This document shows positions 30,598-35,349 of a DNA stretch of 64,000 bases, piece after piece. The notes beneath the pieces were generated by a model. It saw only the letters and a list, made by a program, of their open reading frames with translations, did not search any database and had not been told where the DNA came from. Every line of letters begins with the position of its first letter. Position 1 is the stretch's first letter. Position numbers and translations under genes: made by a program. Source of the DNA: a bacterium (lineage in GTDB: Bacteria; Zhuqueibacterota; Zhuqueibacteria; Residuimicrobiales; Oceaniaggregativiventaceae); assembly GCA_029565675.1 (NCBI GenBank), contig JAKQNP010000008.1:310001-374000 (forward strand), in the 5' to 3' direction.

Positions 30598-32148
30598 CTA
30601 GGACCGCACGATGCGTTGACGAACGGCATCGATGATCGAACCGTCCCGAAATTCGATCAACGCCACCACGCGATCCGTGAATTCGGGTTTTTGCGGTATG
30701 CCGGTCATTTGCATCGCCCGATGATGCAATTCGTCGATGGAACAAATCGGCAGCGAACTCTTTTTTACCCGTTCGAGCAAATCGTGGCGCCGCGGATTGA
30801 TTGCGATTCCGTATTCTGTGACCAGCACATCGATCATTTCTCCCGGTGCGGTCACGGTCGTGACGGAGTCAACCACAATCGGCACGCGATTGCGCACAAG
30901 CGGGGCGGTGATGATGGTGACGTTGGCATCCGCCGCATCGGTGAAACCTCCGATACCGTGCAACAACCAGCCGTCAGAGTGGGTGTTGACGTTGACATTG
31001 AATTCCAGATCAACCTCGGTTGCGCCGAGCACCGAAACCTGGACTCGTTGTGCAAAACAGCCTTTGGTGTGATAATTGTAAGAGACAAATGGATTGGTCT
31101 CGATGTGATTCGGGTTCTCGCGCAGCGAGCGTACACCATCGAGATCAAAACTTTGGCCGTCGAGTATATATCTGGTCATCCCACTTTCCAGCATCTCCAC
31201 CATATACTTGGTCGATCCGCCCCGCACAAAATCGGCAACCACCCCCTTGGCGGCCATCATGTCGCTCATGTATTTGACAAAGGCGAGCGACACCCCGCCG
31301 GCACCAGCCTGAAACGAAAAATTGGGTTCGGTCATGATGCCGCTGTCGCGCACGAATTGCGCGGCATATTCAGCAATGAGCAAGCGGGTCGGGCTGCGGG
31401 TAATGCGAGTGGTGCCGGACATGATCTGCGCCGGATCGCCCAGGGAATCCACCTGCACCACAAAGTCGACATGGCCACCCTCAATGCTCCATGGATAACA
31501 AGGAAAGGGCACCAAATTGTCGGTGACGACCACCACTCGATCGGCCCACAGAGAATCTGCCAAAGCGAATCCGAGCGGGCCACATGCGGAGGGTCCGTTG
31601 AGTCCATTCGCATTGCCATGGCTGTCGGCACACGGCGCCGCGATAAAAGCGACGTCGATCTTCAGATCGCCATCCTGGATGGCGCGAAATCGGCCGCCGT
31701 GCGATCGCAGAACCGCGGTTTTTTTCATCTTGCCAAGCGAGCAGGCTCTGCCGACCGGCCCGTTCATCGATCCTTCGACATGCGAAATGACTCCCCGATC
31801 GATATAGTCAACCAATTTTTCATGCACCGGGAACAACGCAGACGGCGCCAACACCAGATCTCTGAGTCCTCTGGTGGCGAGTTTCTCCATCACCAGGTTG
31901 ATCAGCAGGTCGCCGTTGCGAAGATGGTGGTGAAAACCGATGGTCATGCCGTCGCGGATTTCACAGGCATCGATTGCCTTGTCAATGGACGATAAGAGCT
32001 TGTTTTTGTAATCGCTGGCGGCCCGGATCAACGCGCCGGCTTGGCGTCCACCGCCTTTGTCTGCTCCTGCACCACGAAAGGGACGAAGCGCTCTGCCATC
32101 GATTTCTGCAGGCACCATTCGTCCGACTGCATTTTTTATCCAATTCAT
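30598..32148 (-). CDS. citF: Citrate lyase alpha subunit (citrate:acetyl-ACP transferase)
   Basis: 516 residues, the usual size. RDGMTIGFHHHLRNGD at the start, GSMNGPVGRA, AAPCADSHGNANG and GGFTDAADANVTI are CitF signatures. It moves the acyl-carrier thioester from acetyl to citryl before cleavage by CitE. The ribosome site AAGGATGAGG overlaps the stop of a 55-codon ORF just upstream. Enzymes that make and attach the prosthetic group (CitC, CitX, CitG) are not in the window. Confidence 0.93.
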   Translation of the reverse strand: MNWIKNAVGRMVPAEIDGRALRPFRGAGADKGGGRQAGALIRAASDYKNKLLSSIDKAIDACEIRDGMTIGFHHHLRNGDLLINLVMEKLATRGLRDLVLAPSALFPVHEKLVDYIDRGVISHVEGSMNGPVGRACSLGKMKKTAVLRSHGGRFRAIQDGDLKIDVAFIAAPCADSHGNANGLNGPSACGPLGFALADSLWADRVVVVTDNLVPFPCYPWSIEGGHVDFVVQVDSLGDPAQIMSGTTRITRSPTRLLIAEYAAQFVRDSGIMTEPNFSFQAGAGGVSLAFVKYMSDMMAAKGVVADFVRGGSTKYMVEMLESGMTRYILDGQSFDLDGVRSLRENPNHIETNPFVSYNYHTKGCFAQRVQVSVLGATEVDLEFNVNVNTHSDGWLLHGIGGFTDAADANVTIITAPLVRNRVPIVVDSVTTVTAPGEMIDVLVTEYGIAINPRRHDLLERVKKSSLPICSIDELHHRAMQMTGIPQKPEFTDRVVALIEFRDGSIIDAVRQRIVRS

Positions 32149-32154
32149 ATCGCC

Positions 32155-32322
32155 TCATCCTTGTTGCAGGTTTTGTCCGAAAGTTGGAACCTCGACAATT
32201 AACAGGTTACCATGCCCGATGCGCACAGTTCCAGCCCCGTTGTTCCGCTGATAGCTGGACAATGGTGTGGGCCTTGCGAAACTCGGCGTGTCGGCCGTGT
32301 GATCGATCGGTTGTGCAAACAT
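32155..32322 (-). CDS. Possible 55-residue protein between citDE and citF
   Basis: An open frame from ATG 32322 to TGA 32155, placed in the 199-base gap between the fused citDE gene and citF. The predicted peptide begins MFAQPIDHTADTPSFARP and ends with VRIGHGNLLIVEVPTFGQ and a short tail. Its stop lies 6 bases before the citF start and overlaps the citF ribosome site, as in coupled operon genes. Against it: no good ribosome site before its own ATG and no recognised family. It could be a short real protein, a degenerate gene or chance. Confidence 0.35.
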   Translation of the reverse strand: MFAQPIDHTADTPSFARPTPLSSYQRNNGAGTVRIGHGNLLIVEVPTFGQNLQQG

Positions 32323-32347
32323 GCTGATCGCTTCGGTTGTGCAGTTG

Positions 32348-33565
32348 TTATTTTTCTTCTCCCTCGTTCAACAATCCGACCGCCCGCGCCATGGCCAGCA
32401 CTTTTTGCGCGCGCGCGACCACAGGAGCATCGATCATCTTGCTGCCCAGACAGGCCACACCTGAACCTTTTGCGCTTGCTTCTTCAACAGCCTGGATGAT
32501 TAACCGTGACTTTTCGATCTGTTCGACGGTGGGGGTGAAGATCTGATGAATAGGCTGTATCTGCGATGGATGAATCACTCCGCGGCCGTCGAAACCGAGC
32601 TGCAGAGATTCGCGTGTGCTCGCCAGCAAGCCGTCGATATTTTCAACGTCGGCGTAGACTGTATCCAACGCATGCAGACGAGCGGCTTTTGCCGCCAGAA
32701 CGATAAGGCTGCGGGCGACCAGGCTCTCTTTGCCCTCCTGACTGCGTTCGGCGCCGATATCCGCAGTAAAATCTTCGGCTCCAAAACAGAGAGCGCAGTT
32801 GCGCTTCGATGCCAGGGCGATCTCCCGCGCATTCAAAACACCCTGTGCCGTTTCGATCAAAGGCATCAGTTCGATCGGCCTTTCGATGCCATGCTGTTGC
32901 TCGAGTTCCTGGACCAATCGTTCGACCGCCTGCACATCGGCCACTTTTTCGCACTTGGGAATCAACAGGGTGTCAGGTTGTGCGGGTACGATCTGCTGCA
33001 AATCCGTTTCGCCCTCGGACGTGGAAAGCGGATTGATGCGCACGATTCGTTCGCTGCGGCCAAAATCGACCGCCATCAGGGTGTTGCGCACCAGGATGCG
33101 CGCCGCTGCTTTATGCGGTGGAGCGACCGAGTCTTCCAGATCGAGAATAACCGCATCAGCCCGAAAAAGACCGGCATTGAGCGCCAGATCGGGTTGGTTG
33201 CCCGGCAGATACAGCCGCGAGCGGCGCAAACGGGTCGCCTGCTTGGCGGGCAGATCGACAGGCGCAGCCGGCAAAAGACGCTTGTCGATGGCCGGTTGTG
33301 CTGTACGAACCGCCGCTTCGACCCGGGCTTTGATGATATGGTCGAGCGCCCCTTGATCCCTGATGATCAGCTTGCAGTGGTGGATGCTAAAAAAATCCAA
33401 TGCGGTTTCCAGACAGTGCAAAATCTGATCGCCGAACAGCTCTCTGACCGAACTGTTGATCTCGATCACCCGGCCGCCGGATTTCGCGAGATGCAGCTCG
33501 ATGAGACAATCGCTCTTTTCTTCACGCCCGACCGTAATGATTTGCGCTTGTGCGGATTGGGACAT
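32348..33565 (-). CDS. citE: Citrate lyase: CitD acyl-carrier domain fused to CitE beta subunit
   Basis: 405 residues. Residues ~1-90 match the acyl-carrier gamma subunit CitD (VIEINSSVRELFGDQI, then IRDQGALDHIIKARVEAAV). After a ~25-residue linker, residues ~112-400 are CitE (RRSRLYLPGNQPDLA, VILDLEDSV, LMPLIETAQGVLNAREIA, GFDGRGVIHPSQI), which splits citryl-ACP into oxaloacetate and acetyl-ACP. CitD and CitE are usually separate genes. The CitD serine carrying the prosthetic group (Ser14 in Klebsiella, GTLESSD) aligns here with lysine in GREEKSD; a serine is one position later. Whether that serine is used is open. Confidence 0.85.
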   Translation of the reverse strand: MSQSAQAQIITVGREEKSDCLIELHLAKSGGRVIEINSSVRELFGDQILHCLETALDFFSIHHCKLIIRDQGALDHIIKARVEAAVRTAQPAIDKRLLPAAPVDLPAKQATRLRRSRLYLPGNQPDLALNAGLFRADAVILDLEDSVAPPHKAAARILVRNTLMAVDFGRSERIVRINPLSTSEGETDLQQIVPAQPDTLLIPKCEKVADVQAVERLVQELEQQHGIERPIELMPLIETAQGVLNAREIALASKRNCALCFGAEDFTADIGAERSQEGKESLVARSLIVLAAKAARLHALDTVYADVENIDGLLASTRESLQLGFDGRGVIHPSQIQPIHQIFTPTVEQIEKSRLIIQAVEEASAKGSGVACLGSKMIDAPVVARAQKVLAMARAVGLLNEGEEK

Positions 33566-33659
33566 GTAAATTTACCTCATCTATGTTCAAAAACAGGCTC
33601 TTGGGATGGTTTGATCGGCCCTTTAATATCTGCCAGCGAAAAGTTCAACACAACTTAAA

Positions 33660-33939: not shown

Positions 33940-35349
33940 ATGGATATCCAAAGCCCTCGATCCGCTGCACTTTGGCAATCGCTCATCCCTGTGGTTTCCT
34001 TGATCTTTTTCCTTGGCATCAATATTTTTCTTTTCGCCGGCAGCCCGCATATTCCGCTGGTCCTCGGCACAGTGGTCGCTTGCATCGTCGGCCTGTTTCT
34101 CGGCTTTTCCTGGCGTCAGATGGAGGAGAGCATTGTACAGGGAATCATGGTCGCCATACAAGCCTGCCTCATCCTGCTGGTGATTGGCATGTTGATCGGT
34201 ACCTGGATCCTCAGCGGTATTGTTCCCTTTATGATCTATTGCGGCCTCAAGCTTTTGGCACCATCGCTGTTTTTGGTCACCACCTGTCTGATCTGTTCTC
34301 TGATCTCTCTGGCAACCGGCTCATCCTGGTCTACTGTGGGGACAGTGGGAGTCGCCTTGATCGGCGTGGGGCAGGGTTTGGGGATACCGCTTCCTATGGT
34401 CGCAGGAGCGATCATCTCCGGCTCTTATCTCGGGGACAAGATATCGCCGCTTTCCGACACCACGAATCTGGCGCCGGCAGTGGTCGGGACAGACATGTTC
34501 AAACATATCCGCCACATGATGTATACCACCATGCCGGCCTATGTTGTTGCTTTGCTGCTCTATGCGCTGCTGGGATTGCTTACCGCGCAAAACCGCGTCG
34601 AGGGCACCGAAATTTACGCCATTATGAGTGCTTTGCAGCAGAACTTCAACCTCAATCCTCTCCTTTTATTGCCGCCGTTGTTGGTGATTTTAATGGTGCT
34701 TTTCCGCATTCCCGCTCTTCCGGCTCTCTTGGGCGGTGCTGTAATTGGCGGCTTGTTTGCGCTCTTCTTGCAAGACACCTCTCTGCAGCAAGTGATGACC
34801 GTTGCACAAAGTGGTTTCGTTTCAACAACCGGGATAGATGCCGTCGACCAACTGCTGACCCGTGGCGGCATGGAAAGTATGCTATCGACTGTTGCCCTGA
34901 TCATCTGTGCGCTCGCCTTTGGCGGCGCCATGGAAGGTACCGGCATGCTCATGGCTATTGGCGGCGCGATTCTGCGTCTGGCACGCAGCATCGGCACGCT
35001 GGTTTTGGCAACCATTCTGACTTGCATTACCATGAATGTTATCGCACCTGACCAGTACCTCTCTATCGTTGTCCCCGGCCGCATGTATCGCGAAGCTTTC
35101 CGTCAGCGCGGCCTTGCCGCTGTCAATCTTTCCCGTTGCCTCGAAGACAGCGGCACCCTCAGTTCTCCGCTGATACCCTGGAACACCTGTGGTGCCTATA
35201 TATGGGCAACTCTGGGAATTTATCCATTTGCCTATCTCCCGTTTGCCTTTTTGAACATCCTCACCCCGCTGGTATCGATTTTCTATGGCTTTACCGGCAT
35301 TACCATTCGCCGACTTGACGACAATGATCCGGAATCAAGACCTGTTTGA
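33940..35349 (+). CDS. nhaC: NhaC family sodium/proton (or carboxylate) antiporter
   Basis: 469 residues with about 11-12 membrane segments. The NhaC core ATGSSWSTVGTVGVALIGVG and SGSYLGDKISPLSDTTNLA is intact. The family exchanges Na+ for H+, and some members (MleN type) exchange malate and lactate. Divergence from the citrate lyase genes suggests a role in the ion or acid balance of citrate use, an inference from position only. The start is preceded by AAGGAGA. Confidence 0.9.
   Translation: MDIQSPRSAALWQSLIPVVSLIFFLGINIFLFAGSPHIPLVLGTVVACIVGLFLGFSWRQMEESIVQGIMVAIQACLILLVIGMLIGTWILSGIVPFMIYCGLKLLAPSLFLVTTCLICSLISLATGSSWSTVGTVGVALIGVGQGLGIPLPMVAGAIISGSYLGDKISPLSDTTNLAPAVVGTDMFKHIRHMMYTTMPAYVVALLLYALLGLLTAQNRVEGTEIYAIMSALQQNFNLNPLLLLPPLLVILMVLFRIPALPALLGGAVIGGLFALFLQDTSLQQVMTVAQSGFVSTTGIDAVDQLLTRGGMESMLSTVALIICALAFGGAMEGTGMLMAIGGAILRLARSIGTLVLATILTCITMNVIAPDQYLSIVVPGRMYREAFRQRGLAAVNLSRCLEDSGTLSSPLIPWNTCGAYIWATLGIYPFAYLPFAFLNILTPLVSIFYGFTGITIRRLDDNDPESRPV

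Follow-up and report, generated by a model that had tools for sequence, protein, structure and literature searches.

The textbook examples of enzymes with a phosphoribosyl-dephospho-CoA prosthetic group are citrate lyase and malonate decarboxylase, and why they depend on a bound CoA instead of a free one is an old question. The described system closest to the locus examined here is CitDEF, the ATP-independent citrate lyase of Klebsiella, E. coli, and lactic acid bacteria. The citramalate lyase of glutamate-fermenting clostridia is a homologous complex of the CitDEF type with the same type of reaction (PMC4682846). In malonate decarboxylase, the carrier MdcC (PDB 5VIT) is a separate protein modified on Ser25, the tip residue of a loop that joins two antiparallel strands (PMC5534430), and the enzyme that surrounds it is unrelated to CitE. 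The CitE-like lyases that act on free CoA thioesters lack a carrier domain, and a CitF-type transferase does not generally accompany them.

The 64,000-nucleotide stretch of DNA that we analyzed, here called the window, carries both a carrier domain and a CitF-type transferase, encoded by two genes. Compared with CitDEF, the D-E-F order is kept and the parts are recognizably similar, with 45% identity for CitF (to E. coli CitF, over 464 residues), 38% for CitE, and 35% for CitD. Here, however, CitD is fused to CitE, the attachment serine is replaced by Lys or Arg, and CitX, CitG, and a convincing CitC are missing. The clostridial citramalate lyase cluster differs in the same respect, since it has CitC, CitX, and CitG and the window's enzyme is without them. 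The features of the locus are as follows.

30598..32148, minus strand: citF, alpha subunit (citrate:acetyl-carrier transferase), 516 aa
32348..33565, minus strand: citDE fusion (carrier-like domain plus citrate/citryl-CoA lyase beta domain), 405 aa
32375..33223, minus strand: CitE (HpcH/HpaI) domain, residues 115-397, from Pfam and alignment
33302..33535, minus strand: PF06857 carrier domain (CitD/MdcC type), residues 11-88, from Pfam and fold match
33512..33514, minus strand: codon for Ser18, the proposed shifted attachment site, from alignment
33515..33517, minus strand: codon for Lys17, aligned with the prosthetic-group serine of E. coli CitD (Ser14)
33575..33578, minus strand: GAGG, likely ribosome-binding site for citDE, from reading the sequence only
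33940..35349, plus strand: NhaC-type Na+/H+ antiporter, divergent from citDE

One reading frame for carrier and lyase

The citDE gene begins with an ATG codon, and the GAGG lies about 9 to 12 bases upstream of it. Pfam assigned residues 11-88 of the product to the ACP family PF06857 (61.7 bits; cutoff, 25.1) and residues 115-333 to the HpcH_HpaI family PF03328 (196 bits, far over the cutoff). An earlier reading of the sequence alone had described a CitD fused to the N terminus of CitE, and this was confirmed, with the carrier at residues 11-88 and CitE at residues 115-397 of a single 405-aa open reading frame. When scored against the NCBIfam equivalog models, CitDE fell below both cutoffs (55 against 63.5 for citD and 297 against 443 for citE). 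Both Pfam domains were present in all 31 aligned fused members of our first set, and long fused frames were found in two phyla, which argues that the fusion is not an assembly artefact. The same sequence-only reading had proposed that the fusion fixes a 1:1 ratio of carrier to lyase. The ordinary citrate lyase complex already contains its three subunits in equal numbers, and such a ratio is therefore not created by the fusion, the effect of which is that the carrier cannot leave.

The catalytic residues of the lyase domain are intact. In the malyl-CoA lyase of Rhodobacter, the catalytic residues are Arg76, Glu141, Asp168, Asp299, Glu44, Asp45, and Asp42 (PMC3832036). Alignment to that enzyme gave R176, E238, D265, D379, E144, D145, and D142, in the same order, as their equivalents in the window, and all seven were invariant in 31 of 31 fused proteins. 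A model of full-length CitDE was predicted with a pLDDT of 92 and a pTM of 0.89, and the solved folds nearest to its CitE domain were malyl-CoA lyase and CLYBL, which act on free CoA thioesters. These two and citramalyl-CoA lyase share the CitE fold and catalytic residues with the window's protein, and the use of free CoA would be expected here as well. For the carrier domain, a sequence search for a solved homologue found none, but a fold comparison found one. The AF2 model of this domain alone (pLDDT 90) had a single close global match, chain 5vit_C, which is MdcC (TM 0.72/0.71, rmsd 2.2); the other listed hits were at about 0.5. The first two strands of the model are 8-13 and 20-26, and Lys17 sits in the loop that joins them; the corresponding place in MdcC is the Ser25 loop.

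The CitF protein passes the NCBIfam citF equivalog model TIGR01584 (568 bits against a cutoff of 501) and matches two solved CitF structures. Its gene adjoins citDE in every relative whose contig extends far enough. In the window the two are separated by about 200 bases (32149-32347), and in many relatives, such as L036 and L037, they nearly touch. An NhaC-type antiporter gene also adjoins citDE in four relatives, L035, L036, L037, and L043. One CitF residue, Arg255, is invariant in the fused group (20/20), whereas four ordinary CitFs have Glu or Gly there; the corresponding E. coli CitF residue is 251 (Glu). At Lys140 (E. coli CitF 136), a basic residue is nearly constant in the partners of the fused group when they are compared with the four ordinary CitFs.

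Distribution and maturation genes

We looked for the fused gene across two phyla. By a count with the carrier model, it was present in 33 of 82 genomes of the window's phylum, always as a long frame. The second phylum, Krumholzibacteriota, was reached through contig L001, the sole locus returned by a single-sequence query. There, 58 of 80 genomes had the carrier domain, which nearly always lay in a fused frame, and the exceptions were a few short open frames, mostly at contig ends. In a CitE-domain tree of 69 rows, the fused proteins formed one group (support, 93) separate from ordinary CitE, although the search was short, the outgroup branches were long, and the root is not firm. The fused group splits into two branches, each with a support of 99 and each containing both phyla, which differ in the residue at the attachment-serine column; we refer to them as the Lys branch, to which the window belongs, and the Arg branch. 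The simplest reading of the tree would be one fusion accompanied by loss of the serine, after which the Lys and Arg branches parted and spread, either by descent or by transfer. The library that we searched, including its coverage of citrate lyase in these phyla, yielded no description of a fused CitD-CitE or of the lost serine.

We then asked whether these genomes encode the enzymes of prosthetic-group synthesis and attachment. CitX (PF03802) and CitG/MdcB (PF01874) each gave no match in the window's genome, in the genomes of 60 relatives, or in 80 Krumholzibacteriota genomes, and E. coli was positive for both as a control. At least 89 of the 140 genomes searched carry the fused gene (31 of the 33 carriers in the first phylum plus 58); the assemblies are drafts and include many metagenome bins, and a search by family model could miss an unrelated modifying enzyme. 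The draft state of the assemblies nevertheless does not explain why CitX and CitG are missing from 140 largely complete genomes in two phyla.

CitC (PF08218), the ligase by which the prosthetic thiol is acetylated, had no match in the window's genome. In relatives, the CitC model gave matches of only 20 to 31 bits, nearly all of them in frames of 150 to 210 aa. We did not count these as CitC, given the low scores, the short frames, and the fact that the model gives similar matches in controls expected to lack CitC, such as Bacillus subtilis and Thermotoga, and we judge them to be related nucleotidyltransferases such as CoaD.

The attachment-serine column

The window's GREEKSD aligned without gaps to GTLESGD of E. 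coli CitD, both in BLASTP and with a profile built from ordinary CitDs. G13 is paired with G10, Lys17 with Ser14, Ser18 with Gly15, and Asp19 with Asp16. The earlier description of a Lys at the Ser14 position followed by a Ser was thereby upheld, as was the CitD alignment in this region. For column counts we used a profile of 11 ordinary CitDs (that of E. coli and those of ten operons or loci on plasmid records), to which 62 fused proteins from the two phyla were aligned. Three of the 62 had been trimmed by the program and were read by eye (L001, Lys; L033 and L079, Arg). The Ser14 column was Ser in 11 of 11 ordinary CitDs and in none of the fused proteins, which had Lys in 30 cases and Arg in 32 (29 and 30, respectively, in the profile-aligned part). 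The position after it was Ser in 10 ordinary CitDs and Gly in 1, and in the fused proteins it was Ser in 44, Gly in 14, and Asn in 3, with one trimmed; KGD, KND, and RGD forms thus exist among the fused homologues. The next residue was Asp throughout (11/11 and 62/62).

The invariant basic residue at the Ser14 column is under strong constraint. Simple decay would leave a mixture of residues, and the constancy of the basic residue argues against it. Elsewhere, the carrier domain is conserved in fused and ordinary proteins alike (D16, S35, G42, D67, G69, A70, A77, and R78), indicating that the domain is under selection and not decaying. Column 80 holds a fixed Glu in 61 of the fused proteins. 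Cys73 (GALDC; E. coli CitD column), which is invariant in the 11 ordinary CitDs, was lost in the fused set alongside Ser14. A Cys occupies the +3 position (Cys20 in the window) in 30 of the 62 fused proteins; it is present in 27 of 30 aligned members of the Arg branch, the other three having Leu, and in 2 of 29 members of the Lys branch, which otherwise have Leu, Val, or Ile.

Two ways of keeping a covalent acyl carrier were weighed against these counts. The sequence-only reading had suggested that the attachment site had moved by one residue to Ser18, with the usual prosthetic group kept. The window does have a serine there, as do most of the fused homologues, but 17 of the 62, all members of the same clade, have Gly or Asn instead, and ordinary CitD also has Ser or Gly at this position. 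The +1 serine therefore varies as it does in ordinary CitD and behaves as the normal neighbor of Ser14, not as a new site. The lack of CitX and CitG in every genome searched is also contrary to a prosthetic group on Ser18, and we consider the shift very improbable. Half of the finding that was to refute the sequence-only reading was borne out: fusions are common in these phyla, but the KS pair is not conserved, and no sign of modification of its serine was seen. We give similarly little credence to a second idea, that Cys20, part of an RSDC motif in the Arg branch, itself binds the acyl group, as a thioester, in a carrier without a swinging arm. The frequency of Cys at +3, in the window as elsewhere, would favor it, but the cysteine is almost absent from the Lys branch and not fixed in the Arg branch, and an acyl group held in this way would be unable to reach two active sites, which are about 60 Å apart in malonate decarboxylase (PMC5534430).

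Acyl-cysteine at Cys20 was accordingly rejected as a general mechanism because the cysteine is not conserved. A lysine-bound cofactor is unlikely because half of the family has Arg at that column. Selenocysteine was likewise dismissed: the in-frame TGA listed for some relatives was, on reading, the ordinary stop at the C terminus.

On the evidence of these sequences, then, the enzyme falls outside the known, prosthetic-group type of citrate lyase, as the defining serine and the maturation genes were looked for and not found. The other possibility offered by the sequence-only reading, that the enzyme works differently, is supported by the sequence evidence: the loss of Ser14, the absence of CitX and CitG, the invariant CitE catalytic residues, the adjoining CitF, the single clade of the fused proteins, and the MdcC-like fold of the carrier.

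Probable use of free CoA, and the choice of substrate

We consider it fairly likely that CitDE and CitF make up a two-gene enzyme of the citrate lyase type that lacks covalent 2'-(5''-phosphoribosyl)-3'-dephospho-CoA and uses free acetyl-CoA and citryl-CoA, with the carrier domain serving as a scaffold. CitF would carry out acyl transfer with free acetyl-CoA, converting citrate and acetyl-CoA to citryl-CoA and acetate. The CitE domain would then cleave free citryl-CoA to oxaloacetate and acetyl-CoA, which would return to CitF, and the fused carrier domain, retained as a scaffold, would keep CitE and CitF together. The unmodified state of the protein, its use of free CoA, citrate as its substrate, and the scaffold role of the carrier are all points that we infer. 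Isolated subunits of ordinary citrate lyase reportedly act on CoA esters. That the parts of CitDE and CitF could use free CoA is supported by analogy, both with the CitE-like lyases and with the malonate decarboxylase subunits MdcD-MdcE, which take free malonyl-CoA (PMC5534430). It is unexpected that a whole carrier domain should be kept without a carrier role, and this counts against the free-CoA explanation.

What Lys17 does in place of the attachment serine is a separate matter. Speculatively, it may bind free CoA at its phosphate end. In malonate decarboxylase with CoA, the 3'-phosphate is solvent exposed where the carrier would be linked at the neighboring 2' position, and in the transferase site the ribose 2'-OH was modeled about 10 Å away from the attachment serine (PMC5534430). 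Given this arrangement, a Lys or Arg in place of the serine could meet the 3'-phosphate, a group that is present on free CoA and not on the prosthetic group. A single substitution at the tether point might in this way have turned a swinging-arm enzyme into a free-cofactor enzyme, with the Lys or Arg gripping the 3'-phosphate and the carrier acting as a CoA-binding module that passes CoA thioesters between CitF and CitE. One hint of such a grip is that a basic residue is found in 62 of 62 proteins even though its identity differs by branch; a further hint is the invariant CitF Arg255 gained in the fused group. We regard this more specific proposal as possible but, on balance, doubtful.

A plainer account has the carrier domain purely structural, with CitE and CitF using free CoA thioesters and the Lys or Arg merely stabilizing the CitE-CitF interface without a cofactor role. 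It differs from the free-CoA enzyme that we favor solely in the role of Lys17. The carrier bridges the two catalytic subunits in malonate decarboxylase (PMC5534430), and the scaffold residues of the domain are conserved here, both in agreement with such an account. We nonetheless think it unlikely: both branches have an invariant basic residue exactly where the attachment serine was, which suggests that this residue has a function at the former cofactor end. The substrate could also be an acid other than citrate, such as citramalate. Citrate and citramalate lyases are homologous (PMC4682846), the window's CitE scores under the citE equivalog cutoff and might thus serve a citrate analogue, and in four Arg-branch relatives citDE adjoins an enzyme of the aconitase/isopropylmalate dehydratase type, accompanied in two of them by malic enzyme. 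The window, however, belongs to the Lys branch; its CitF is closer to that of E. coli than are those of the Arg branch (45% against about 39%) and passes the citF equivalog cutoff, and the window contains no dehydratase or malic enzyme neighbors. A substrate other than citrate seems improbable to us, if not negligibly so.

Judged by these comparisons, the Lys branch is nearer than the Arg branch to ordinary citrate lyase, and the Arg branch may act on citrate, on isocitrate-derived citrate, or on an analogue such as citramalate. The four Arg-branch citDE-citF pairs with the dehydratase lie at 3756-7945 in L045, 3378-7555 in L050, 9514-11282 in L052, and 3963-5753 in L053. Directly upstream of each is a dehydratase of the hacA/LeuCD type with large and small subunits, which are fused in L053, and a MaeB-type malic enzyme is also present in L045 and L050. 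In all four, the dehydratase and citDE-citF look like a small, putative pathway operon.

The enzyme in the window has the build of a citrate lyase, and it probably also works in that manner, with free CoA. When genes of these uncultured phyla are annotated automatically as "citrate lyase," the label implies a cofactor pathway that the phyla lack. A large natural group that retains CitF, CitE, and the carrier fold without the attachment residue or the maturation genes makes the question of bound versus free CoA testable by means of matched enzymes.
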